A stretch of DNA of 51,720 bases from Runella sp. CRIBMP (GTDB taxonomy: Bacteria > Bacteroidota > Bacteroidia > Cytophagales > Spirosomataceae), in the NCBI RefSeq assembly GCF_009905605.1, contig NZ_JAAAKZ010000029.1, forward strand, positions 1-51,720, written 5' to 3'. Shown one piece after another: positions 4,282 to 16,616 of the stretch. A program made the translations under genes and the position numbers. The notes under the pieces are model-generated. The model searched no databases. It was not told the origin of the DNA and worked only from the letters and a program-made list of their open reading frames with translations. Each line of letters begins with the position of its first letter. Position 1 is the stretch's first letter.

Positions 4282-4835
4282 AAATTTGATTGTAAAGGAT
4301 GAGATTAAAAAGTGATTAAAATTTGTGCACTATTAATTGAAATAATGCTTTCCCTATATCTACAAATGTAGGATACTCACCCCTCCCAAACAATAGCTAA
4401 TATGACTATTAAGTATGCCATTTGATAACTTATTTACCTTTAATGGCTAAATATAAGGCTCGTAATAATTTGTTTTTATTCTCTATATTTTGATTAATTT
4501 AAGTATTTTAAATAGTTATAATTATAATTTAACTTATAATTTTTATATTTAAGGGCCGATAGAAAAAGTTTGAAGGAGAATGATAAAAATATCCCTATTT
4601 GATAATTGATGTTTGTGTACTTAATTTGGAGCAATGGTAAAGTGGTTAAATGAAAAACTAGCTTAAGTACTATAATTGAGTATGTCTTTGAGTGCTATTT
4701 TTTGACAGTGTTAATCAGTCTTTTCATAGCAATTATGGGTAGATAGTAGAATCAAGAAATGCTCAGGTGGTTGGTGAATGAGTTGATTCTACTGATGTAC
4801 AAAGAGAGTGCCTAAACCAACTAAAGTAACGTTAA
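4282..4835. other. AT-rich divergent intergenic region
   Basis: About 550 bases between the divergent lipoprotein and LuxR-type regulator genes. The stretch 4470-4550 is almost pure A/T. It must contain both promoters, but I could not place either with confidence. No ORF with coding character or RNA gene is visible. Confidence 0.5.
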
Positions 4836-5618
4836 ATGTTGATTCCAACCGAACCCAAATCTGACGCGGTTCCCCTATTTTTTGAAGAATTACCTAAAGA
4901 GCAGACTCATCAAATCAACTACAAAGAGGTTGTTGAATCGCTGAATTATATTTATGATAGTCTGCTTGAGCCGTGGACTTTTGTGGTGGTTTTGGACCTC
5001 GAGCGGCTTGAAATTCTTTATGCAAACGAAAATTGTCTACAGCTGTTTGGTGAAAGTGGTAAGCCATTAACTTCTCAATACTTACCTTTTGCCTTTTTAA
5101 GGCCCGAAAGTCAGCCCTCATTTAAACGGGTCATTAGCCAATTTCAAAATATGGTTCAGGCGGTGTCTCCAAAACGGCGCAAATTTATAAAAACTCAATG
5201 GGTAGGAATGCGACTCAAGCCACTCAACGGAAAACCTTGGGTGTCTTTTGCCACCCTCATGCCGCTTTCAGCCCGTATCGACGGTACACCCAATGTAGTA
5301 TTGATGATTAACCAGAACATTTCGCACTTATACAACGCTAATTTTGCTTGGTTGCGCCAGTCATGTACACGTGTTTCTCAGTGCAATGCGTATTTTCATT
5401 CTAGCACGGGAGAAGTTTTCAATCACGACATTCTTTCAAAAAGAGAGTTGGAGGTTCTGAAACTGATTGCAAAAGGGTATAACTCACAGCGTATCGCCAC
5501 CGAACTGTCCATCAGTGTCAATACCGTCAGTAATCATCGAAAAAACATGATGGACCGCGTTGGGGTCAGCGATACCACCGCCCTTCTTCAACTTGCCCAA
5601 TGGTGTGACCTTATTTAA
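4836..5618 (+). CDS. PAS-like/LuxR-type transcriptional regulator
   Basis: 260 residues. The N-terminal two thirds resemble a PAS-type sensor: the segment WTFVVVLDLERLEILYANENCLQLFGESG (quoted here in pieces: VVVLDLERLEILYANENC, then LQLFGESG) has typical PAS spacing. Residues about 198-255 form a LuxR/GerE helix-turn-helix (LSKRELEVLKLIAKGYNSQ, then IATELSISVNTVSNHRKNM). No receiver domain and no membrane segment are present, so it should be a cytosolic one-component regulator. It lies 205 bp upstream of the lasso cyclase gene on the same strand and is the obvious candidate regulator of it, which is an inference from position only. Confidence 0.85.
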   Translation: MLIPTEPKSDAVPLFFEELPKEQTHQINYKEVVESLNYIYDSLLEPWTFVVVLDLERLEILYANENCLQLFGESGKPLTSQYLPFAFLRPESQPSFKRVISQFQNMVQAVSPKRRKFIKTQWVGMRLKPLNGKPWVSFATLMPLSARIDGTPNVVLMINQNISHLYNANFAWLRQSCTRVSQCNAYFHSSTGEVFNHDILSKRELEVLKLIAKGYNSQRIATELSISVNTVSNHRKNMMDRVGVSDTTALLQLAQWCDLI

Positions 5619-5734
5619 GCGGCATACACTCGGCCTGCTTTGGAAAGCAGAAATAATAATCATCTGGAGATTTTATTCCTATCCGATTTTTGTGCGACTG
5701 TAATTTTTAATTTATGGGTATATAAAATTATTCC

Positions 5735-5762
5735 TTTGGTGTGAATAAAATACGTATTATTG
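5735..5762 (+). promoter_or_regulatory. Possible promoter of the lasso cyclase gene
   Basis: TTTG at 5735-5738 and TATTATTG at 5755-5762 (seven of eight matches to the Bacteroidota -7 element TAnnTTTG), separated by 16 bases, slightly short of the usual 17-23. About 60 bases to the ATG at 5824. Weak evidence; no start site is known. Confidence 0.3.
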
Positions 5763-5823
5763 TGAAATGAATGAGGTTTTTGTACTTAAATGGTACCTAT
5801 TAGAGGGTATATAGTATTTTTCG

Positions 5824-7923
5824 ATGAATGGTCTTTTGGGGATATTTAAATTTGACGGTTCAGACGTTCGACTTTCGGATGTGGAAATGATGAAACGCTC
5901 ATTAAAGCATCTGGCAGTGGATGGCATGAATATGTACCTCGAAGGACCGGTGGGGATGGTTTCAATGTACCTACACATCTCGCCAGAATCGGTTTATGAG
6001 CGTCAGCCACTGGAAAGTGCACAGGGCAAAATCATCGTTGCTGATGCTCGTATAGATAACCGCGTTCAGTTGCTTGAAGAATTACAAATTCCCGAAGAAA
6101 CTAGAGCCTTTTTTCCTGATAGTGAACTTATTTTAACGGCTTACGAACAATGGGGCGAAGGCTGTGCTGATCGCCTGATTGGTGATTTTGTATTTGTTAT
6201 TTGGGATACTCAGCGAAGCCAGTTGTTCTGTGCTCGCGACCACATAGGAGTGAGGCCCCTGTATTATTATCATTTGCCTGGTAAAGTATTTGCGTTTGCC
6301 TCCGAAATTAAAGGACTTTTGGCGCTTGATTTTGTCCCGCAAGATCTGGATGAACTTAAAATTGCGGCTCATCTTTCAAAGTTGAGTGATTTCAGAAGGT
6401 ACGTAGATGGTACATATTTCCAATCTATCAAGAGTGTTAAGCCTGCGCATTTTCTGACGGTTTCGGCGGAGCAATTTTCTCAGAAATTTTATTGGGATTT
6501 GCGTCTGGAGCGTTTTAGCCACTTAAAAACGGACGAAGACTTCATACAGGAGTTTCGAAAAACGTTTATTGAGTCCGTTAGGTGTCGCACCCGCACCGCA
6601 TTTCCGATTGCGGCCCACCTCAGCGGCGGATTGGATTCCTCCTCGGTGAGTTGTGTGGCTAGGGATATTTTGCGAGCAGAAGGAAAGGAGTTGCATACCT
6701 TTCACATGGATGTAGAACTACCCGAATGTGATGAGAAGCCCTATGCCGAAGCGGTGTTGGCCGAAGGTGGGTTTCGGCATCATTATGTCAAAATAAGTGA
6801 CTTTGATTTTTATGAAACCACTACCGAGGTAGCTTACATGACAGATGCCCCTAGTGCATTTGTGGTAACTCCCCCTGCGCAGGCGGGTTGGATGAAGGGC
6901 TTGCAGAAAGAAGGCTGTCGGGTATTGCTGACGGGCCACGAAGGCGATATTGTGGTGGATTATGGCATGGATGTATTATGGGAACCTCTCAAAAAAGGCC
7001 AATGGGAGGTTTTTGAAAAAAACTTTGATGACTACGCCCAGTACGCCGTTAAGTTCAATTTTTTAAAACGAATCAACGCTTGGTCGCCAGATAAAATCAA
7101 GACTTTTTACAAAGGAATTTTACTAGAATCAGAACTCCGAGATAGCATTGGCCAACGTAAATGGAGCAAAGTAAAAGGCATTTTGACCCGCCGTGGCAAT
7201 TGGAGGTCTCTGCTGGAAGCGGGAAAATTCAGGTTGGAGGTTTGTTGGCCTGCCATTACCGCTCTTGGGCGTTTAAAAGCTGATTCTAATTACACCATTT
7301 TAGGGCCAGCTCTCCAAAAATACACCCTGACTCATCCCGAAGTGAGTCGCCAAATGAAGGGTGCTGAAAATAATGCGGGAATACCAGAACATCTGTTGCC
7401 GCATTTTCAGCAGATTTTTTCGGAGGGAATGACCAAGTTCTGTGACATTTTTGCCCATGTAGGCGCCCACCATGGCTTCAAAGTAGCGCATCCATTTCTA
7501 GATCGTCGGCTCATTGAGCTGTCATTGCTGTTGCCTAGTACGCTCAACTTCAATGAAGGCAAAAGAAGGGGTACGATTCGGGAAGCTATGAAGGGGATAA
7601 TGCCCGAGTCGGTAAGGCTTCGGACGGTAAAAGTCAATTTTGAATCGCTAATTCATGTGACTCTCTTAACTGCAACTCCTTCATTTGAGGAGTATTATAA
7701 AAATGCGGTTGCGCAGTATCCGATTCTTCGTACTTGGATAAACGAGAAAGAATTTCTAAAACGTATAGAAATTTGCAAATCGAACGACTATCCCGAAGAA
7801 TTTAAAAGTAAACTCATTTGGCATCTATTTAGAAGCATATATCTTATCAATTTTTATTCAACTTATAAAAAAAACCCTTATGAAAAAGAAGTATCGCGCA
7901 CCGAAACTGAAAGTAGTTGGTAA
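5824..7923 (+). CDS. Lasso peptide cyclase (asparagine synthetase-like C protein)
   Basis: 699 residues with the asparagine synthetase B layout: an Ntn-type amidotransferase domain (about 1-190; LIGDFVFVIWD, ARDHIGVRPLYYY) and an ATP-pyrophosphatase domain with PP-loop SGGLDSSS at 267-274 and the distal segment HPFLDRRLIELSLLLP. The Cys2 needed for glutamine hydrolysis is absent (the protein starts MNGLLGIF, so Asn is at that place), so it should not make ammonia. Loss of that Cys is known in lasso cyclases of the McjC type, which adenylate an Asp/Glu side chain and form the macrolactam with the peptide N-terminus. The call rests on the lasso precursor encoded at its 3' end, overlapping by 44 bp. 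Ordinary asparagine synthetase is unlikely. Confidence 0.85.
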   Translation: MNGLLGIFKFDGSDVRLSDVEMMKRSLKHLAVDGMNMYLEGPVGMVSMYLHISPESVYERQPLESAQGKIIVADARIDNRVQLLEELQIPEETRAFFPDSELILTAYEQWGEGCADRLIGDFVFVIWDTQRSQLFCARDHIGVRPLYYYHLPGKVFAFASEIKGLLALDFVPQDLDELKIAAHLSKLSDFRRYVDGTYFQSIKSVKPAHFLTVSAEQFSQKFYWDLRLERFSHLKTDEDFIQEFRKTFIESVRCRTRTAFPIAAHLSGGLDSSSVSCVARDILRAEGKELHTFHMDVELPECDEKPYAEAVLAEGGFRHHYVKISDFDFYETTTEVAYMTDAPSAFVVTPPAQAGWMKGLQKEGCRVLLTGHEGDIVVDYGMDVLWEPLKKGQWEVFEKNFDDYAQYAVKFNFLKRINAWSPDKIKTFYKGILLESELRDSIGQRKWSKVKGILTRRGNWRSLLEAGKFRLEVCWPAITALGRLKADSNYTILGPALQKYTLTHPEVSRQMKGAENNAGIPEHLLPHFQQIFSEGMTKFCDIFAHVGAHHGFKVAHPFLDRRLIELSLLLPSTLNFNEGKRRGTIREAMKGIMPESVRLRTVKVNFESLIHVTLLTATPSFEEYYKNAVAQYPILRTWINEKEFLKRIEICKSNDYPEEFKSKLIWHLFRSIYLINFYSTYKKNPYEKEVSRTETESSW

Positions 7924-7999
7924 AGTTGCCACCCTCACCCGCGCTATGGGTAGCGCCGGAGGAGATGCTCAAGCTTCGAAAAACGGAATGGGGGTATAA
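7880..7999 (+). CDS. Lasso peptide precursor (39 residues)
   Basis: A short ORF starting inside the 3' end of the cyclase gene in the +1 frame. The leader reads MKKKYRAPKLKVVGKVATLTR and matches the lasso leader pattern YxxPxLxxxGxxxxxT exactly (Y5, P8, L10, G14, T20). By the rule that the conserved Thr is the penultimate leader residue, cleavage falls after R21, giving the core AMGSAGGDAQASKNGMGV. The only acidic residue in the core, D29, is core position 8, the right place for an eight-residue macrolactam ring; a ten-residue loop and tail remain. Ala at position 1 is less usual than Gly but known. A terminator follows at 8088-8140. The leader and Asp position are seen; that it is made and cyclised is inferred. 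Confidence 0.85.
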   Translation: MKKKYRAPKLKVVGKVATLTRAMGSAGGDAQASKNGMGV

Positions 8000-8062
8000 T
8001 CGATAGAAATGACACGCTTTTAACGATAACTGTTTAAGCATACTCTACTCTACGATAAATAC

Positions 8063-8080
8063 CTGCCTTGAACCAGGCAG
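8063..8080 (+). other. Small hairpin upstream of the terminator
   Basis: CTGCCT (8063-8068) pairs with AGGCAG (8075-8080) across a six-base loop, just before the main terminator of the lasso precursor transcript. It may protect the mRNA 3' end; no function is established. Confidence 0.35.
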
Positions 8081-8087
8081 TAAACTT

Positions 8088-8140
8088 AGGCCAGAGGGAT
8101 ATCCATTAAAATTTGGAATATTCTCTGGCCTATTCTTTTT
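8088..8140 (+). terminator. Terminator after the lasso precursor
   Basis: AGGCCAGAG (8088-8096) pairs with CTCTGGCCT (8123-8131), extended by two G-U pairs and a short inner helix, and is followed by ATTCTTTTT. It closes the cyclase-precursor transcription unit before the convergent ABC transporter gene. Confidence 0.75.
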
Positions 8141-8158
8141 GTGGCTTTCCTTTCTTGA

Positions 8159-9922
8159 TTAAGAAATGACTTCCTTGTACTGCATTCGGTACAGATTGGC
8201 GTAGAACCCGCCCCGCTCTAGCAGTTCGTCGTGGGTTCCTTTTTCCTGAATTTCGCCTTTGTCGAGTACAATGATTTGACTCGCTTTCTGGATAGTGCTC
8301 AACCGGTGCGCAATCACGATAGCAGTACGGCCTTTCATCAGTTTTTCAATGGCATTCTGAATCAACTCTTCCGTTTCGGTATCGACCGATGATGTTGCTT
8401 CGTCCAACACAATGATTTTTGGGTCATGGACCAAGGCCCGAACAAAAGAGATTAATTGACGTTGCCCCACCGAAAGCGTAGCACCGCGCTCCATGACGTT
8501 GTAGTCATAACCATCTGGAAGCCGCTCTATGAACTCATGCGCTCCGACCAACTGCGCTGCCTCGATGATGCGCGCACGACTGATGGACGTATTGCCGAGC
8601 GTAATGTTGTTGTGAATGGTGTCCGAAAATAAAAATACATCTTGTAGCACAACGCCGATATTTTGGCGTAATGCGCCCAATTCGTAGCTGTGAATTTCGG
8701 TGCCATCAACCAAAATCTCACCTTTATTGATGTCATAAAAACGGCTCAGCAAATTAATGACCGACGATTTGCCTGCGCCAGTCGCCCCTACAAAAGCGAT
8801 GGTTTCACCTTCTTTGACATCGAATGAAATATCCTTAAGGACGTATTCTTCTTCGTTATAAGCAAACCAAACGTTTTTGAAAGAGACTTCTCCGCGCAGT
8901 GTTTCGGGGGTATAAGTACCGTTGTTGACCGTGAAATCGTGGCTGTCGAGTAGCTTTAGGATACGGTCGGTGCTTACAATACCCATCTGGAGGGTATTGA
9001 AACGGTCGGCCAACATGCGTATTGGCCTGAAAAACAGGCCAATAAAGATGATGAAGGCGGTTACGGTTCCAAATGAGGCGTTGTAATGCATGATTTCGCG
9101 GGCTCCGTACCACACGACCAAACCCGTTGCGGCGGCGGCAATGACGTCGGCCACGGGATAATAGACCGAATAATACCAGATCGAACGTATGTTGGCGTCG
9201 CGGTGAATGGTATTGATTTTCTTGAATTTACGGTATTCGGTTTTCTCCGCGCTGAAAATCTGCACAATGTTCATCCCCGTAAGGTGCTCTTGCACAAACG
9301 AGTTGAGGTTGGAGACCGCCGTGCGCACTTCATTGAATGAATCCTTGATTTTTTCCTTAAAAATATACGTACTTATGAGCATGAAGGGCACGGTAGCAAG
9401 ACTAATGAGCGACAGACGCCAATCGGTGTAAAACATCACCCCGATGATTAGAATTAACTGCAAAATATCACCCGCCACGGCGGCCATACCGTCGCTAAAT
9501 ACGTCGGAGAGGGTTTCAACGTCGGAGACCGTCCGCGTAACCAAGCGGCCAATGGGCGTATTGTCGAAGAATTTTAGACGCAGACTAAGAATTTTTTCGT
9601 ACAACTGAACCCGAATATCACGGATGATATTTTGCCCCAACCAACCCGCCAAATAGGTATTGGCAAACTGAATCACTGCCTGCACCAACAAAATGCCAAT
9701 CATAATCAAAAGCATGACCACAAGTCCATTGTAATCACCCGTTGCGATTTGATTATCAATGGTATAACGAATCAATAACGGGCTTAATGGCGCTAAGCAT
9801 GCGCTCAGTAAAATGATGGCAATGAGGAAATAAAATTGTTTTTGGTAAGGCTTAATGAAGGTGTAAAGACGGCGAAGGGTGGGCCAGTCAAATATTTTTC
9901 CGCTTTTTTTTTCTTCGTTCAT
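8159..9922 (-). CDS. ABC exporter, fused permease and ATPase
   Basis: 587 residues from the ATG at 9922; a TTG 39 bases upstream would add 13 residues that look non-native. An N-terminal six-helix exporter domain (about 20-330) precedes an ATPase domain with Walker A GATGAGKS (379-386), signature LSVGQ (483-487, Val in place of the usual first Gly), Walker B IIVLDE (503-508) and H-loop His539. It is an MsbA/MdlB-type half transporter that should work as a homodimer. There is no C39 peptidase domain. It is convergent with the lasso precursor and could export the product, as the D protein does in lasso clusters, but this subfamily is also a common housekeeping lipid/drug exporter, so the link is positional only. 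Confidence 0.85.
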   Translation of the reverse strand: MNEEKKSGKIFDWPTLRRLYTFIKPYQKQFYFLIAIILLSACLAPLSPLLIRYTIDNQIATGDYNGLVVMLLIMIGILLVQAVIQFANTYLAGWLGQNIIRDIRVQLYEKILSLRLKFFDNTPIGRLVTRTVSDVETLSDVFSDGMAAVAGDILQLILIIGVMFYTDWRLSLISLATVPFMLISTYIFKEKIKDSFNEVRTAVSNLNSFVQEHLTGMNIVQIFSAEKTEYRKFKKINTIHRDANIRSIWYYSVYYPVADVIAAAATGLVVWYGAREIMHYNASFGTVTAFIIFIGLFFRPIRMLADRFNTLQMGIVSTDRILKLLDSHDFTVNNGTYTPETLRGEVSFKNVWFAYNEEEYVLKDISFDVKEGETIAFVGATGAGKSSVINLLSRFYDINKGEILVDGTEIHSYELGALRQNIGVVLQDVFLFSDTIHNNITLGNTSISRARIIEAAQLVGAHEFIERLPDGYDYNVMERGATLSVGQRQLISFVRALVHDPKIIVLDEATSSVDTETEELIQNAIEKLMKGRTAIVIAHRLSTIQKASQIIVLDKGEIQEKGTHDELLERGGFYANLYRMQYKEVIS

Positions 9923-10191
9923 AATGGCCAATAAGGAGGTTTTGAAATTTGTTAACACCAAAAAAGAAAGGAAAGTTACAAAATACAGGACTTAGCGCCC
10001 AATATGCTGTTATTTTGGGTTTAGGGGACCTCGATGAGCAAAATTATAAAAATATGTGACCGAATGATGGACCTTTACCGTTTACACATTTCTACTTTCT
10101 TTCCTCTTTTATCTACTCCCCAAAATGAATACAATTATTAAATTGAGGCAGATTTAACGAGCGATTTTGGACGCTCCAAGGCACGAAGAAG

Positions 10192-13100
10192 TTGAAAATA
10201 AAACTACTGTTTTTATCTGTTTTTCTGACCGCAGTCATACAGCACTTGATGGCCCAAGTTCTCCCTTATGCCAATGACTGGATTCGTTATGAACAGCCCT
10301 ACTTCAAAATTACGGTAAAGCAAGAAGGGGTATACCGAATCAGTGTTGACCAATTGCGCAAAGCGGGTTTTCCAGTTGCGTCCGCACCAGCAGAACAGTT
10401 GTCCTTATTTTATCGGGGAGAAGAAGTTGCGGTTCGGGTAGCGGGAGTCACTAATGGTAAATTAACGGAAAGTAGTTATGTAGAATTTTTCTCTCAAGCA
10501 AACACTGGAGTTCAGGACAGTCTAGTTTACCGACCTTACTCGGCCCGCCCGCCAACGACGGTGAGCCTTTACAGTGACGAAAACGCCTATTTCTTGACTA
10601 TTGTTCCTAATCATAAAGGTAAACGAATAGAGGAAATTGGGTATCAGGCCAGTGCTGCCGCTCCCGAAGCCTTTCATTTAGAACGAGAGGTAAAACAGTA
10701 CAAAGAGGAATGGTCGTTCAATAATAACAATGGCTTGGTACCTTTTTTACAGCAAAGCTATTACGAAAAAGGCGAAGGATGGACGGGCAAATTGATTCGG
10801 CGCGATTCGTTGGCGCAGGTGATGATTGCGCTCACCAATCGGGTGGCATCGTCTAGTCATCCCATTCAACTCACGGCCTTGCTGAACGGTCGCTATGAAT
10901 CGTTTCATTTGCTCAATGTCTCGGTGGGACAACGCACAATTTCAACCCTTGATTTTTTTGGATTCAATCATCAATCCGTCAATGCCACGGTTGCTGAAAA
11001 TGAGCTTAACGCTGGGGATATGTTTGCGCTCAGAATGAAATCGAATTTGAACAATCAGTACGAGTTCTACTCTCTCACGAAATACGAAGTCGTTTATCCT
11101 CAGCGATTTGAAATGACCGACCGTGCTTCAAAATATTTTTATCTGCTCCCTAATCCTGCCAACCAGTCAACAGTAGCCATTGCAGGGATACCCTCATCGG
11201 TTACCCCGATTTTCTATGATGTAACCCAATCCATGAACCCGCGAGTGCTTGAAAGTAGATGGTCTAACGGGCGTTGGCAGGCCGTTGGGCTGGGCACGGC
11301 ACAATCCCGAACATTGTTTGTAACAACAGTTATTCAATCGGTTGAGTCTTTGAAAAAAGTAAACTTTACCCCTTACCCCACAGAGGTTGATTACGTTATC
11401 GTTACCCATAAAACCCTTGAAAACGCTGCCCAAGCCTATGCCGATTACCGCAAATCTGCCGAAGGAGGAGGTCATCAAGTACTGGTTGCCGATATAGAGC
11501 AACTCTACGATCAATTTAATTATGGTGAGCGCGGGCCATTGAGCATTCGGAACTTCCTCAATTATCAACTCCAGTCGGGCAAAAAAGCCCCTTACTTATT
11601 GCTCATCGGCAATGGGGTGAGTTTTCCTGACGTCCTCAAAACTGGGCAAGACCGTGATTTTGTTCCTACATTCGGCTATCCAGGTTCGGATGTGTTGCTA
11701 TCGGCGGGATTGGGTGGTGTAGACCCAAATACGCCTGCGTTCAGAACGGGTCGTATAAGCGCTTCCACCCCTCAGCAGGTGTTGGCCTATTTGAATAAAG
11801 TAAAGGAATTTGAAAAAGCGCCGCCTGCCCTGAATACAAAAACAATTCTCCACCTGAGTGGCGGCAAATCAGCAGAAGAAATACAACAATTAAAAGGAAT
11901 TTTGGCCGATTTGGAGCCATTTGTGAAAAAATCATCATTGGGCGGCAAGGTGGAAGTATATACAAAGCGCACTACCGAACCCGTAGAGAATCTTTCCATC
12001 GCCGAACAGGTCAACAAGGGGGTGGGAATGGTTACGTTTATGGGGCACGCGTCGCCTACCGTGCCCGACCTCAACATTGGCTATGCCTCCGACCCCACCA
12101 CCCAATTGGCCAATAAAGGTCGGTACCCGTTTATGTATTTCAATGGCTGCGGGGTCGGGAATGTCTTTTATCGGTACGAAACCTTAGCGGCTGATTGGCT
12201 GCTGACGCCCGAAAAAGGCTCAATTGGCGTGCTTTCCAATTCTTTTTGGAGTTATCCTTCCATTTCGGCGCATTACCTGAAAGAACTTTATTCGGCCATG
12301 TTTGACCAAGAAGCAACCTTGGGGAGGCCCATCGGTGAAATTTTGCAGAAAGTGAGTAACACCATTGCCACCACCAAAGAGAACGAATTTGACATTGCCA
12401 ATGTGCATCAACTCATTCTTTTGGGCGACCCAGCGGTGGTGTTATTTAAAATCAATAAACCTGATTATGCCGTTGAAACGAAGGGGATGTTTGTTCAAAG
12501 CCCCAAATCGTTTTCGCAGTCAGATTCGGTGCAGGTGGGCGTTATCATTACCAATGCAGGAAAAGTGGATGAACGGCTAAAAAGTTTTACCATCAAACTT
12601 AGCCTAACAGAAACCAACGGCACGGTTTCCTCCAGAATGTTTTCGGTAAAGGCTCCGACTCAAAAAGACACGCTGTTTTTGGGCATTAAAAAGAACGCTG
12701 GCTTTAGCAATATAAAAGTATTTCTGGATGCGACACAGCAGATTGAAGAATTGAACGAGCAAAACAACGAAGCACAATTGACGTTAAACTGGCCATTGGT
12801 AGAACCGCTCACGCGCTACCCTGCATACACCACAACTGACCGTGTTAATCCTGTCATGGAGGTGACCGTTGATGGTAAAGTGATTCAGAATGGGGCACTT
12901 GTGTCTTCAATGCCTGTTTTTAATGTTTTGCTTTTTGATGATAATCCGTTGGAATTAGACACCAATTTGGTTCAATTATACCTCAAAGCCTGCGACTCCT
13001 GTCCGTTCAAATTACTGACCAATGGGTTATTTGAGTTGAAAACACTTCGAAATCTAGCTGTTCAGTTCAGACCAGGTGTATTGGCGGCTGGGAAGTATGA

Positions 13101-13437
13101 ATTATTGGTGCAGGCAAGGGATGTGAATGGAAATGGAGCGGGAATTCCGTACCGTGTTCAATTCCGCATTGAGGAGGTGCAAGAGCGACTGAACATCGTC
13201 GTAGCACCCAATCCCTCAAGGGGTTATGCTCGATTTATTTACGAGTTGAGCGGATCTGTGGTAGAGGGTGTTTTGACGATTTATTCCGAAGAAGGGAAAA
13301 AAGTCAAGGAGGTAAAATTCGATGCCCAACTGGGTGAAAACGAATTGTACTGGACCGACCCGCCTGCTTCTGGAACATACATATATCGTTGCAGAATTGG
13401 AGAAAAAATAGCAACGGGAAAGTTCATTATTGACTAA
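10192..13437 (+). CDS. C25-family cysteine peptidase, putative T9SS sortase (PorU/PorU2-like)
   Basis: 1081 residues with a signal peptide (cleavage near HLMAQ). A large beta-rich N-terminal region precedes a gingipain-type C25 domain with predicted catalytic His619 (TFMGHAS) and Cys653 (YFNGCGVGN), spaced as in gingipains. Residues about 1000-1081 form a type A T9SS sorting domain (VVAPNPSRG at its start, then SGTYIYRCRIGEKIATGKFIID). PorU is the outer-membrane sortase that cleaves the sorting domain of T9SS cargo and attaches it to the surface. The opening YANDWIRYEQPYFKITV and the lack of an adjacent porV suggest the PorU2 paralogue rather than PorU itself; I cannot settle this by eye. The start is TTG at 10192, the only start placed correctly for the signal peptide. 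Confidence 0.8.
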   Translation: MKIKLLFLSVFLTAVIQHLMAQVLPYANDWIRYEQPYFKITVKQEGVYRISVDQLRKAGFPVASAPAEQLSLFYRGEEVAVRVAGVTNGKLTESSYVEFFSQANTGVQDSLVYRPYSARPPTTVSLYSDENAYFLTIVPNHKGKRIEEIGYQASAAAPEAFHLEREVKQYKEEWSFNNNNGLVPFLQQSYYEKGEGWTGKLIRRDSLAQVMIALTNRVASSSHPIQLTALLNGRYESFHLLNVSVGQRTISTLDFFGFNHQSVNATVAENELNAGDMFALRMKSNLNNQYEFYSLTKYEVVYPQRFEMTDRASKYFYLLPNPANQSTVAIAGIPSSVTPIFYDVTQSMNPRVLESRWSNGRWQAVGLGTAQSRTLFVTTVIQSVESLKKVNFTPYPTEVDYVIVTHKTLENAAQAYADYRKSAEGGGHQVLVADIEQLYDQFNYGERGPLSIRNFLNYQLQSGKKAPYLLLIGNGVSFPDVLKTGQDRDFVPTFGYPGSDVLLSAGLGGVDPNTPAFRTGRISASTPQQVLAYLNKVKEFEKAPPALNTKTILHLSGGKSAEEIQQLKGILADLEPFVKKSSLGGKVEVYTKRTTEPVENLSIAEQVNKGVGMVTFMGHASPTVPDLNIGYASDPTTQLANKGRYPFMYFNGCGVGNVFYRYETLAADWLLTPEKGSIGVLSNSFWSYPSISAHYLKELYSAMFDQEATLGRPIGEILQKVSNTIATTKENEFDIANVHQLILLGDPAVVLFKINKPDYAVETKGMFVQSPKSFSQSDSVQVGVIITNAGKVDERLKSFTIKLSLTETNGTVSSRMFSVKAPTQKDTLFLGIKKNAGFSNIKVFLDATQQIEELNEQNNEAQLTLNWPLVEPLTRYPAYTTTDRVNPVMEVTVDGKVIQNGALVSSMPVFNVLLFDDNPLELDTNLVQLYLKACDSCPFKLLTNGLFELKTLRNLAVQFRPGVLAAGKYELLVQARDVNGNGAGIPYRVQFRIEEVQERLNIVVAPNPSRGYARFIYELSGSVVEGVLTIYSEEGKKVKEVKFDAQLGENELYWTDPPASGTYIYRCRIGEKIATGKFIID

Positions 13438-13448
13438 CGCAGCGGGCG

Positions 13449-14126
13449 TTATTCTTTGCCGTATGCGTTGATTTTTAGGATTTTTTGGTGGCCAAATTCA
13501 ACGATACCTTTCCCTAGGCAATCGGCGTTTTGACAGTATTGTAGGCTGGTACTTTCTTTATAAATCAACCCGACGTTTGGGGCGTAGCGTTCTGTGAAAT
13601 TAACCAAATAAACCAAGCTTGAATCTTTTTGTTGGACAATCTCCAAATTGCTAGAAAACGTGAGTGAATTAATACTAAAGGGCAGATTGGAGAAGCGAGC
13701 TTCACTGGTTTGGGGCGGTAGGGTATTGTATTGGTTTGCGTTCCACGTAAGACCGTCGAAAAGCGGAAAAATCATTTTTAAGATGGGACGATTATTTTCG
13801 ATTTTTACGGCGCGGTCGGGTAGGAGGTAGGCGGTCCACACTGAGTCTAGTGACCAGTTTTGGTCGGCAGTGTTTCTTCTAAAACGGTTGATTTGATATT
13901 GCCCCGTTGTCCCCTTAAGTTCGGAGCCGCAAACTTCTTTCAGAAAATAAGAGATTTTTACAAGGGGCTTGCTCAGCGCATAGGACGTTTCCTGCACTTC
14001 GTACTCTACAAATCGCCCAGTTTCCAAAGGGAAAAAGCGGTAATCAGATTCTTTGGGAATTGGCCCAGAAGAGGTACATCCTACCAACAGCGCCAATCCA
14101 ATAAGTAACCAATAATTTTTTGTCAC
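13449..14126 (-). CDS. Unrecognised lipoprotein
   Basis: 225 residues starting at a GTG codon, with a lipoprotein signal (WLLIGLALLVGC, lipobox Cys17). The mature part begins SDYRFFPLETGRFVEYEV, a pattern seen in many Bacteroidota lipoproteins of unknown function, and is mostly beta strands. It is convergent with the C25 peptidase gene (11-bp gap), with only a weak five-bp hairpin (AACGC/GCGTT) between them. No enzymatic motif is seen. Confidence 0.75.
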   Translation of the reverse strand: MTKNYWLLIGLALLVGCTSSGPIPKESDYRFFPLETGRFVEYEVQETSYALSKPLVKISYFLKEVCGSELKGTTGQYQINRFRRNTADQNWSLDSVWTAYLLPDRAVKIENNRPILKMIFPLFDGLTWNANQYNTLPPQTSEARFSNLPFSINSLTFSSNLEIVQQKDSSLVYLVNFTERYAPNVGLIYKESTSLQYCQNADCLGKGIVEFGHQKILKINAYGKE

Positions 14127-14411
14127 GATTTATAAGGCAGATAACCATTTACCCAAATATAGTATGCAGTTAAATACGCTTTACATTTTGATGAAAATCG
14201 TTCATAAACGGTCGTCATCATAAGAGTAGGTTTGTTGAAATAAATTATTTGAGGAGGAGTTTTAGCTGAAAATGGTAATTTTACGCTTATTAAGGGTGTA
14301 CATTTTATTCATTGACACAAAAAATGAATTTGTCGATCTGAAGTTCAATTCATGGAATCGAGTGAATCGCTTAGATTTACAGTACACGAAAGCAATAAAA
14401 CGTAAGTTGAC

Positions 14412-14693
14412 ATGAATATTGATTTATCGCAAACTTTTAAACTCACACACAATCAAGTATCATCGAGTCTTGATAATGAGACGATTATCCTAAATCACGA
14501 TGCGGGGGTATATTATGAACTTGATGAAGTAGGCACGCTGATTTGGGAGCATTTGCAACAGAAACCCGCCACCGTTGAAGAGTTGAAAAAAGCGGTTTTA
14601 GCCGAATTTGAAATTGATGAAGTCACGTGTGAAAACGATATAAAAACGCTTTTGAAGGAATTAATGAGCGAAAAACTCGTGGAAATAGTTTAG
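14412..14693 (+). CDS. PqqD-family RiPP recognition protein (lasso B1-like)
   Basis: 93 residues with the PqqD/RRE pattern: LDNETIILNHDAGVYYELDE, then GTLIWEHLQQ, then a helical C-terminal half (PATVEELKKAVLAEFEID). PqqD-type RiPP recognition elements bind the leader of a precursor peptide and bring it to the modifying enzyme; in lasso systems with split B proteins this is B1, which hands the leader to the B2 protease. It lies 49 bp upstream of the HPr-kinase-like gene and reads the same way. Its likely client in this window is the precursor at 7880, 6.4 kb away. Other RiPP systems elsewhere in the genome cannot be excluded. Confidence 0.8.
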   Translation: MNIDLSQTFKLTHNQVSSSLDNETIILNHDAGVYYELDEVGTLIWEHLQQKPATVEELKKAVLAEFEIDEVTCENDIKTLLKELMSEKLVEIV

Positions 14694-14742
14694 GAATACT
14701 GGGAGTTTCCTTTTTGTATTTAATTCTTTAATTGATTCCTTG

Positions 14743-15633
14743 ATGCTTTTTCGCGCGTATACATTAACTATTGATTCTGATATTGATCTTCAATTGCCCA
14801 AGGGTGAAGGTAAAGCCGATATTATCATAGAAAAGGCTCGATTTTCTGCGGAAAAGCAATTTCAAACGCAAATTTATCGAAAAGGGGTACGGGCAATATT
14901 TGGTGGTGGAGGCAACGCTACGATGCTAGACTGGGAAGGAATTGCGCGCTTCAAAGCCCTATTAGGAAATCGGTTAGAGTACGAAAAAATGACCAATGAT
15001 GATGGCGTTTTTCGGCTTTTTGCGTTGAGCGAAGCCTTGGGAATGGTGTTGTTTCAACGTAATCTTTTTTTGCTTCATGGAAGCGCCGTCAAAATAGGAG
15101 AGCAGGCAACGATTTTTATCGGGCGGCCAGGAGCGGGCAAATCAACGACGGTGTCGGCGTTTGCGCAGCGGGATTATACAATATTGAGTGATGATTTGAC
15201 CGCCGTTTGGTTCGATGAAAAAGGAAAACCCTACGTACTACCCGCGTTTCCTGAGCTTAAGATTTGGGAAAATACGGTGAATAACTTAGGGTTTGATAAA
15301 ACTCAATTGCAACCCGCTTTTGAGGGGCATAACAAATTTTTGTATCAACAACCGATTGCTAATTTCCCCCGCGAACCCGTGCCGCTTCACAAAATCATTA
15401 TTTTGCAACGGCCTTATTCCAAACAAGTAGGAGTTGTAAAATTAACACAGACGCCCGTGGAGTTATTTCCGCATTTTCCGCTTCCGTCGCGGTTGTTAGA
15501 GGGGGGGGGCTTACAGCGCCATTTTGAAGATTGTATTCGACTCAGAAGAGCCGTTTCTATCGTGAAAGTACCGCGCCCGAAAAACTTTACGTTGCTGAAA
15601 CGGTGGATTGAGCAGTGGCCACTGTCGTTCTAA
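14743..15633 (+). CDS. HPr kinase-like protein (lasso-associated serine kinase type)
   Basis: 296 residues from the ATG at 14743. The segment LLHGSAVKIGEQATIFIGRP leads into the Walker A loop GRPGAGKS (127-134), followed by LSDDLTAVWF, the acidic motif of HprK-type kinases. It lacks the N-terminal HPr-recognition domain of true HprK. Proteins of this type paired with PqqD-like proteins are known from lasso clusters (the paeninodin kinase group), where they phosphorylate the precursor at a C-terminal Ser. The precursor here ends in Val, so the substrate is uncertain. A run of nine G at 15501-15509 lies in the C-terminal third. The stop overlaps the convergent GSCFA gene by three bases. Confidence 0.8.
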   Translation: MLFRAYTLTIDSDIDLQLPKGEGKADIIIEKARFSAEKQFQTQIYRKGVRAIFGGGGNATMLDWEGIARFKALLGNRLEYEKMTNDDGVFRLFALSEALGMVLFQRNLFLLHGSAVKIGEQATIFIGRPGAGKSTTVSAFAQRDYTILSDDLTAVWFDEKGKPYVLPAFPELKIWENTVNNLGFDKTQLQPAFEGHNKFLYQQPIANFPREPVPLHKIIILQRPYSKQVGVVKLTQTPVELFPHFPLPSRLLEGGGLQRHFEDCIRLRRAVSIVKVPRPKNFTLLKRWIEQWPLSF

Positions 15634-16616
15634 TTTTCAAACGCTTGGAGTTGTTTTTCAACAAAGGCGATTTCAGCACCTACCTCCACGTTTATTCTCA
15701 TCTTTTGAAGTTTTTTTAGCAAGTTTTTGAGAAATAGTTTGTGGGCCGCAGAGTTGGGTTGTAGCGGGCGGTGCGCCATTTCTTGCTTTAGTTTCTGCCA
15801 TTCTCTGGCAAATTGTTTCAGGGAATCATCAAAATAGGTTTCTGAAAACCGTTGAAAAATGTATTGCTCCGCAGTTTCGTTGGGGTGAATAAGGTCGGGT
15901 TTATAAAAGCGATAATCGCGCAGGTCATCCAGCAAAAGTTCGTAAGCGGGAAAGTAATGGACATTCTCCACAGTCTCGCTTAGTTCATGACAAGCAACCC
16001 TCAAAATGGATTTACTAACGGCATTGAGCGGGAGGGTGTCGCGGGTGTGCCGTACGGGGCTTACGGTCAAGATAACCGCTATGGAAGGATTTTCTGAACG
16101 GAGTAATGAGCAAATACCCCTGAAATCTTCTACAATGGCTTCTATAGATAAAAGCTCGCGCCTAAACTGTTTGTTGGGCACTTTGTGGCAATTGGCAACG
16201 ATACATTGGGTAGCTATCTGCCGATAAACATACGCTGTTCCGAAGGTAATAATCAACCACTTAGTATTCAAGAGCCACTCCCGTACCCGATGCAACTGAT
16301 GAGTCAACTGCGTAGTAAGGGCTTCTTTAGTGAGAGCCCAGCACGAAGAGTGAAAGTCATAATGAAACCAAATGCCCTGATTTTCAACGTATAAATTTTC
16401 GTCGGGAGGTTGCCGGTTGATAGACTGCCGAAGAAGTTTTATGATGGAAAGCGGGTTAAAAATAGTCCCGAAGGGGTTAGCTAGGGTAGGGACTTTGTTA
16501 TCGACCAATTTTTGTCCAATCACTTCCGCAAAACACGACCCTACCGTCAAAATGGGCGTTTGAAGGATGATTTTTTCGTTACTTTGAGCAAGGGAAATTT
16601 CGGTTCGAAAATGCAC
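15630..16616 (-). CDS. GSCFA domain protein
   Basis: 328 residues starting at GTG (16616). The family motif that gives the name is present near the N-terminus (ILTVGSCFAEVIG). Other conserved parts are NPFGTIFNPLSI, WLIITFGTAYVYR, LTVSPVRHTRDTLP and PDLIHPNETAEQYIF, resembling the catalytic blocks of SGNH/GDSL hydrolases (Ser in GSC, His in the last block). The function is unproven; an esterase/acyl-hydrolase activity is an inference from that resemblance. It is convergent with the kinase gene, so it is probably not in the RiPP operon. Confidence 0.85.
   Translation of the reverse strand: MHFRTEISLAQSNEKIILQTPILTVGSCFAEVIGQKLVDNKVPTLANPFGTIFNPLSIIKLLRQSINRQPPDENLYVENQGIWFHYDFHSSCWALTKEALTTQLTHQLHRVREWLLNTKWLIITFGTAYVYRQIATQCIVANCHKVPNKQFRRELLSIEAIVEDFRGICSLLRSENPSIAVILTVSPVRHTRDTLPLNAVSKSILRVACHELSETVENVHYFPAYELLLDDLRDYRFYKPDLIHPNETAEQYIFQRFSETYFDDSLKQFAREWQKLKQEMAHRPLQPNSAAHKLFLKNLLKKLQKMRINVEVGAEIAFVEKQLQAFEN

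Follow-up and report, generated by a model that had tools for sequence, protein, structure and literature searches.

The window analysed here is the complete 51,720-base contig C22 of Runella sp. CRIBMP (genome G000; 7.13 Mb, 55 contigs, 99.99% complete). It contains a short gene, A, which very probably encodes a knotted lasso peptide, together with genes for a putative cyclase (C), a leader-recognition element (B1) and a kinase-like protein (K), and a search of the genome with PF13471 found no leader protease (B2) within the window. In described lasso clusters, A, B and C are kept together (PMC5067487, PMC9266682, PMC7549694, PMC13381572, PMC12670498). The features that matter most are as follows.

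5824..7923, forward strand: predicted lasso-type macrolactam cyclase C, 699 aa, AsnB-like (PF00733, 122.5 bits; GATase_7, 99.9 bits)
7880-7999, forward strand: precursor A, 39 aa, MKKKYRAPKLKVVGKVATLTRAMGSAGGDAQASKNGMGV, overlapping the 3' end of the cyclase gene by 44 nt
7880..7942, forward strand: leader of A, MKKKYRAPKLKVVGKVATLTR (YRAPKLKVVGKVATLT-R), with the YxxPxL recognition motif YRAPKL and Thr at position -2
7943..7999, forward strand: core of A and stop codon, AMGSAGGDAQASKNGMGV, predicted ring Ala1-Asp8
14412..14693, forward strand: B1, a discrete PqqD-like recognition element, 93 aa (PF05402, 65.1 bits, over the cut-off)
14694..14739, forward strand: B1-K junction, 46 nt, B2 absent; the same junction in G050 is 435 nt long, with B2
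14740..15633 (ATG at 14743), forward strand: HprK-related kinase-like protein K, 297 aa, assigned from a weak model match and context

The open reading frame (ORF) at 7880-7999 was proposed as a lasso precursor in a sequence-only reading of the locus and is present as described: A fits the leader pattern Y..P.L...G.....T at all fixed positions and has a single acidic residue, the Asp at core position 8. A lasso ring is closed on an Asp or Glu at core positions 7-9. The leader pattern, found once in the window, occurs 0.037 times per dinucleotide-shuffled window, and 0.007 times together with an acidic residue at core positions 7-9 (300 shuffles each). The leader ends in Arg; the core ends in Val and has no C-terminal Ser. 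Lasso leaders are described as conforming to [Y/W]xxPx[L..] with Thr at -2 (PMC13381572, PMC7549694), and core position 1 is reported to be Gly in 62% and Ala in 16% of cases (PMC7549694), so that Ala1 of the window is ordinary and a Lys at this position would be unusual. After loss of one water, the predicted product has a calculated [M+H]+ of 1590.70 and a doubly charged ion at 795.854, in agreement with the earlier hand calculation (1590.70 and 795.85). A simple promoter and terminator scan around A gave signals no more frequent than in shuffled sequence.

Comparison with relatives carries more weight. The A protein of G050, a genome of the same genus, is identical over all 39 residues; of the 120 nt of its gene, 8 are changed relative to the window, with 8 synonymous and 0 non-synonymous changes. 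In G123, a Runella metagenome-assembled genome (MAG), the precursor has the core AMGSAGADSNNLKSGMGV, in which Asp8 is kept and the ring retains A-M-G-S-A-G-x-D; dN/dS (the ratio of non-synonymous to synonymous substitution rates) between G000 and G123 is 0.45 over the gene, with all amino-acid changes within the core. The leader is letter-identical across all three genomes; a conserved leader in cyclase-bearing relatives, which the sequence-only reading had proposed to look for, was thus found. Judged by these comparisons, A is a genuine gene under selection, with its leader and putative acceptor conserved and its tail changing.

Model scores gave a divided answer. The best-matching precursor model, NF033528 ('lasso_cyano'), covers residues 1-26 and leaves out the core tail, scoring 30.0 bits (E 3.7e-7) with its cut-off of 33 not reached; NF033521 gave 18.6 bits, with its cut-off of 19 not reached, and A matched no Pfam family. 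Precursor models scoring below threshold had been named in the sequence-only reading as a result that would refute the prediction, and taken literally this result was obtained: the best matches are lasso models, but both precursor models fell 0.4-3 bits, and the cyclase model 53 bits, under the cut-offs. The NF033528 cut-off of 33 is exceeded by 1 of the 121 genomes of the family (Spirosomataceae). Despite scores just under the cut-offs, the reality of A is settled by its conservation in G050 and G123.

A begins inside the gene of an AsnB-like protein in which, as had been noticed earlier, the glutaminase Cys is lost: residue 2 is Asn, and the ATP motif SGGLDSS is retained. Among NCBIfam models, this protein best matches the lasso cyclase NF033535 (471.9 bits; cut-off 525), and it scores 232.2 bits against AsnB TIGR01536 (cut-off 267.1). 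None of the 121 family genomes reaches the NF033535 cut-off, which suggests that this model is too narrow for the family. The cyclase is 91% identical to that of G050 and to that of G123, with dN/dS of 0.083 (G000 against G050) and 0.108 (G000 against G123). Unique residue changes number 23 in G000, 28 in G050 and 31 in G123; there is therefore no acceleration in G000 and G123, the lineages without a local B2. Three genomes that had been considered cyclase-less (G034, G022 and G047; none at E 1e-40) were rejected as such, each having a shorter Asn_synthase-family protein of 559-583 aa beside a homologue of the lipoprotein listed below. The best-matching family models, the selection on the precursor and the Asp8 of relatives (21 of 23 cores of the corresponding class) together support the earlier proposal that A and the cyclase gene it overlaps form a lasso precursor-cyclase pair, Asp8 being the predicted ring acceptor.

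The stretch 5824-7999 had been taken as the whole system. This view missed B1 and the kinase at 14412-15633, and did not take account of the absence of B2 from the locus. B1 scores 67.8 bits against the lasso PqqD model NF033536 (lasso_PqqD_Bac; cut-off 80), and among chains of solved structure TbiB1 gives its best sequence match (E 5.9e-12). K matches TIGR04352 (HprK_rel_A) at 27.6 bits (cut-off 200) and Hpr_kinase_C at 15.1 bits (cut-off 33.3); no solved relative of K was found by sequence (E 0.1), and a K homologue comes after B1-B2 in relatives. The B1-K block lies 6.4 kb from A, behind an ATP-binding cassette (ABC) gene, a C25 peptidase and a probable lipoprotein. Between G000 and G123, dN/dS is 0.162 for B1 and 0.106 for K (245 codons, as the G123 contig ends within K). 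In its YxxPxL-type leader, Thr at -2, discrete B1, AsnB-like cyclase and HprK-like kinase, the window resembles the split-B clusters, for example that of paeninodin (A, B1, B2, C, K and D; PMC5067487, PMC9266682). Unlike these, it has no B2, no C-terminal Ser and no assigned exporter, and its B1 and K are distant from A.

B2 lies between B1 and K in G050, in G031 and, at the window's own position, in G095. Searching the window by tblastn with three B2 proteins gave no convincing remnant (best E 0.16, none at the junction). The gene order is C-A-ABC-B1-B2-K-C25-lipoprotein in G050 and C25-lipoprotein-C-B1-B2-K-GSCFA in G095, so that G095 has B1-B2-K where the window has B1-K. G123 has a B2-less B1-K junction resembling that of the window, which argues for a single B2 deletion predating the split of the two species, rather than for an assembly error. 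The nearest B1-K pair to the window's is also that of G123 (84 of 93 B1 residues and 212 of 245 K residues); against G095, B1 is 77% and K 75% identical. That the window's B1-K is a block moved from the G050 arrangement was considered and rejected, since K shares 201 of 297 residues and B1 66 of 93 with G050, as against 82-100% for eight other genes. With no B2 at the locus, making the predicted product would probably require a protease supplied from another part of the genome.

The sole PF13471 match in the G000 genome is at C14:44035, and it also scores above the cut-off of the NCBIfam B2 model (67.6 bits against 33). It sits in a K-B2-A-C-x-B1 cluster (L010:5011-9196; also L067 and L083) that is paeninodin-like in anatomy, with a precursor that combines a WxxP leader with a C-terminal Ser in its core and matches the PadeA model only weakly (12.7 bits; cut-off 27). 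Probable glycosyltransferase-type genes, recognized by eye, surround this cluster. Three more precursor-cyclase pairs with the window's type of leader occur in G000, on C5, C13 and C19. PqqD matches in this genome are confined to C14 and C22 and the PF13471 match to C14; these three pairs therefore have no adjacent B1 or B2. In G123, no B2 match was found anywhere in the 83%-complete MAG. A second kinase match in G123, 29% identical to the window's K (the C14 kinase is 28% identical to it), stops 99 bases short of the end of its contig; in C14, B2 comes next to the kinase on this same side.

Separation of precursors from B2 was examined throughout the family with an A1 profile, built from 20 precursors of these same genomes that were found by NF033528 or the leader pattern, so that its match list is not independent. 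The profile gave 88 precursor rows in 39 of the 121 genomes. B2 exceeds its Pfam cut-off in 39/39 precursor genomes and in 13/82 others; with NF033528 alone, 14 genomes match, and 14/14 also match PF13471. Only 11 of the 88 rows have B2 within 10 kb; in 27 it shares the contig but is farther away, by as much as 4.35 Mb, and in 50 the contigs differ, with distances taken along the contig as numbered and not round the circle, and with some precursors near contig ends liable to miss neighbours. In G011, nine precursor rows stand beside two PF13471 matches in the genome. To lie apart from B2 is thus the rule for precursors in this family, and the enzymes appear to be shared.

Two classes of core can be told apart among 87 of these rows (G004:C1:4876213, which lacks the Tyr, was left out of the core counts and kept among the 88 and the 27 same-contig rows). 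Sixty-four cores start with Lys, and all 64 have Asp7. In the other 23 the first residue is Gly in 11, Ala in 10 and Asp or Asn in one each; Asp8 is present in 21 of these 23, the remaining two having Glu9 and Asp10. A cyclase lies within 4 kb of 20/23 non-Lys1 precursors, as against 22/64 Lys1 precursors. Conversely, a neighbour within 500 nt with a tail of the type IX secretion system (T9SS) type accompanies 56/64 Lys1 precursors and 1/23 others (Fisher 5e-13; such P-values ignore shared ancestry). In the ten genomes with both classes, 34 of 37 rows fit this split, which 0 of 100,000 within-genome shuffles equalled. The T9SS-tail profile was home-made from 7 seed tails, including that of the window's C25 protein, and matches 101 of 538 ORFs of at least 200 aa in those loci; of 7 neighbours tested with Pfam, 5 passed PF18962, 1 was below the cut-off and 1 had no match. 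The lone non-Lys1 match, on C19, is doubtful, its G050 counterpart having no tail. The window peptide belongs with the Ala1-Asp8 cores: it has a dedicated cyclase and lacks a T9SS-tail neighbour.

Inside one genome, the likeness of Lys1 cores (mean 0.76 over 74 pairs) exceeds that of the corresponding leaders (0.64); across genomes it is the leaders that are more similar (cores 0.40, leaders 0.51). Five precursors of G011 have the same 15-residue core and lie next to different T9SS-tail proteins. Identical or near-identical Lys1 cores recur at distant loci of one genome (L080, L171 and L207 in G011; L069, L076 and L135 in G034), with diverged leaders and mostly different T9SS-tail neighbours (none detected for L069). 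Under the Thr -2 rule, Lys1-Asp7 would form a seven-residue ring, or one of eight if the leader were cut one residue earlier. Xanthomonins reportedly have seven-residue rings, and they close on Glu; their ring size is that of the Lys1-Asp7 class under this rule, while the window belongs to the eight-residue class.

Among the cores that start with Ala, those of L079, L199 and L208 (AAGSFSAD.., AGGSNSAD.. and AGGSFSAD..) have no cyclase within 4 kb and are flanked by ORFs of similar size, 225-235 aa upstream and 462-479 aa downstream. A trio of precursor, YcaO and cyclase recurs at L013:4126-8132 (C19 of G000), L066:8171-12177 (G050) and L217 (C33 of G011); the precursors have a C-terminal Cys, and their cores are ATGSGDADGMTGLSVC, AAGSGDADGMTGLSVC and ASGSGDSDGSTQQFPVC. 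The C19 YcaO protein matches PF02624 at 240 bits; in L217 the YcaO (4637-6682) and the cyclase (6683-8581) are 56% and 52% identical, respectively, to those of C19. The trio may possibly specify an azoline-lasso hybrid.

Around the lasso genes, the window carries the following neighbours.

4836..5618, forward strand: PAS/LuxR-type regulator (GerE, 60.9 bits; PAS matches below cut-off)
8159-9961, reverse strand: MsbA-like ABC gene, below the cut-off of the MsbA model
10192..13437, forward strand: C25-family peptidase (PF01364, 238.4 bits), with a C-terminal tail that looks T9SS-like by eye
13449..14126, reverse strand: probable lipoprotein of about 225 aa, paired with the C25 peptidase; assigned by eye, no Pfam family
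directly after K, reverse strand: GSCFA gene, in the place where several genera have a nucleotidyltransferase

The PAS/LuxR-type gene upstream of C, a possible regulator whose membership of the locus is uncertain, holds the same place in G050, in G031 and, cut by the contig end, in G123. The ABC gene was considered as a lasso exporter, and this is unsupported: it is 98% identical in G050 (dN/dS 0.018) and 93% in G095, where the leader pattern gives no such precursor in the 19.5 kb examined around it. Such conservation, also where the pattern finds no precursor, is what a housekeeping transporter would show. Rfam and tRNA scans of the window gave no match.

The window's C25 protein had no Pfam match to the T9SS tail PF18962, and its export is a guess from the sequence of its end. 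Its His619 and Cys653, which we take to be the residues expected for C25 peptidases, are invariant across 5 aligned homologues; no solved relative was found by sequence (E 0.001). A lipoprotein homologue lies within 2.5 kb of the cyclase in 31 of 59 cyclase rows examined, and in 28 of the 59 a C25 protein is also present within 3.5 kb (one cyclase, in L145 and L197, is counted twice, and in several loci little sequence is left beyond the cyclase). The window is not among the 28, its lipoprotein being too far; the pair stands somewhat farther from the cyclase in the window, G050, G031 and G123. Among the matches listed, C25 proteins occur in all 121 family genomes, most of which have one above 250 bits, and the window's protein falls, with other lasso-linked ones, in a second group at about 226-244 bits. 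By neighbourhood, the C25 peptidase thus seems to be a recurrent companion of lasso cyclases in this family, and the T9SS link of the Lys1 class suggests that the C25-lipoprotein pair works at the cell surface.

The LuxR, ABC, C25, lipoprotein and GSCFA genes form a scaffold that G031 has in common with the window, but with a different A-C pair; the B1-K blocks are also differently placed (L068 versus L064 and window 4836-16616), as if cassettes had been exchanged on a common Runella scaffold. In several genera, a PF14907 nucleotidyltransferase follows B1-B2-K (L134, L139, L130 and L072), for which PsmN of pseudomycoidin offers a comparison (PMC9266682).

We consider it rather probable that the locus makes a lasso-type ribosomally synthesized and post-translationally modified peptide (RiPP) whose leader would be cut in trans by the C14 B2. 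B1 (14412-14693) would bind A through its YxxPxL leader, the leader would be cut after Thr-Arg, and the cyclase would join the amine of Ala1 to the side chain of Asp8, giving an eight-residue ring. With B2 missing between B1 and K, no recognized local protein makes the cut; the most likely protease is the B2 of the paeninodin-like C14 cluster, to which the retained B1 would present the Tyr-type leader. That this B2 serves the window's B1 and precursor is likely, as the simplest account. B1-type proteins of Bacillota are described as distinguishing WxxP from YxxP leaders (PMC13381572), which would explain why the window keeps its own B1. Kinases of lasso clusters modify a C-terminal Ser (PMC9266682); as this residue is absent here, K may phosphorylate the precursor elsewhere, perhaps at ring Ser4. 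Ring closure, phosphorylation and threading are, like the action of B2 in trans, inferred.

Several observations weigh against this reading. Alone among the 39 precursor genomes, G000 has no typed B2 other than one of the C14 kind, the other 38 each having a B2 nearer that of G050 (herein 'Tyr-type'; B2 was typed with our own profile and found in 44 of 45 loci, not in L218). The two kinds of B2 are 22% identical and the two B1 proteins 26%, so that cross-use is not assured, and coexisting systems are described as discriminating between cognate precursors and peptidases (PMC13381572). The second B2-less case, G123, is an 83%-complete MAG, and the G000 assembly is a draft of 55 contigs.

Of the alternatives, the one that survives best, although we regard it as unlikely, is that the leader is removed without a lasso B2, a host or accessory peptidase making the cut while the cyclase, B1 and the kinase work B2-free. 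The locus has no B2 and its leader ends in Arg, and pseudomycoidin reportedly forms in the absence of the leader and the leader peptidase, going by the title of a 2019 study. The linked C25 peptidase is a candidate by neighbourhood only, and its exported look speaks against it. In another RiPP family, a signal-peptidase-like enzyme is found with a lasso-like recognition protein (PMC13381572). The presence of B2 in 39/39 precursor genomes, as against 13/82 others, would be odd if B2 were dispensable.

It is quite improbable that the locus is decaying and that its product is no longer made after the loss of B2. The loss of B2 at the locus would fit decay, as would the searches of G000, which revealed no B2 resembling that of G050. 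However, A, C, B1 and K are all open, and purifying selection continues, the dN/dS of C, B1 and K being 0.11-0.16 in the comparison of two species that have the B2-less junction and no excess of changes in either lineage; the leader is identical and Asp8 is kept while the core changes, even though dN/dS of A is 0.45. Similarly improbable is a Tyr-type B2 in G000 that was missed through an assembly gap or was too diverged for PF13471. The genome is a draft of 55 contigs, and a search that used the G050 B2 as query is no proof of absence; on the other side stand the completeness of 99.99%, the fact that every one of the other 38 precursor genomes matches PF13471 and has a G050-kind B2, and the B2-free junction in two species. 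A linear or otherwise linked RiPP with lasso leaders and enzymes is very improbable: a kinase and recognition protein do occur in cyclase-free systems (PMC13381572) and sequence cannot reveal topology, but the precursor and cyclase genes overlap and are conserved together, Asp8 is retained while neighbouring core residues change, and a cyclase is close to most non-Lys1 precursors of the family.

The known examples of such linear products, the linear polyphosphorylated peptides (LPP) of Bacillota, are cyclase-free and have the leader YxxPxVLxHQxIxFETxxS (PMC13381572). LPP systems have the leader logic, discrete recognition protein and kinase in common with the window, and they use a non-B2 peptidase (PMC13381572). 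Unlike them, the window has a cyclase gene overlapping its precursor and a leader without the HQ-FET part, and a Pfam scan of seven neighbouring window proteins found no signal peptidase.

Returning to trans-cleavage, a wider picture can be drawn, which we put forward tentatively and regard as doubtful. In it, one B1-B2-kinase set would mature up to nine scattered precursors as part of a genome-wide Spirosomataceae lasso system. One class, the window's, mostly with Ala/Gly1-Asp8 cores, would have dedicated cyclases; Lys1-Asp7 cores beside T9SS tails, repeated across loci, would form a device at the cell surface together with the C25 peptidase and lipoprotein that are linked to cyclases. In the boldest form of this picture, a sortase-like C25 enzyme would use the free Lys1 side chain to attach the peptide to cargo of the T9SS.

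Among the titles and abstracts listed from the literature searched, which did not cover key papers, no description was found of lasso precursors served by an unlinked B2. No paper there joined 'lasso peptide' with 'type IX secretion', or 'RiPP' with 'type IX secretion' and 'precursor peptide', and 'lasso peptide' with 'Cytophagales' gave one, a symbiont genome paper. The window thus holds a new lasso-type precursor in a protease-less locus, part of a dispersed and partly T9SS-linked system for which no description was found in that literature. Lasso mining expects A, B and C side by side, and cluster-based mining would miss or misjudge precursors distant from B2. If B2 acts in trans, one enzyme set serves many unlinked genes, and leader recognition and its specificity would be testable in living cells. 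The link between Lys1 cores and T9SS tails provides a testable lead to the role of the peptides, a question that is open for many lasso peptides.

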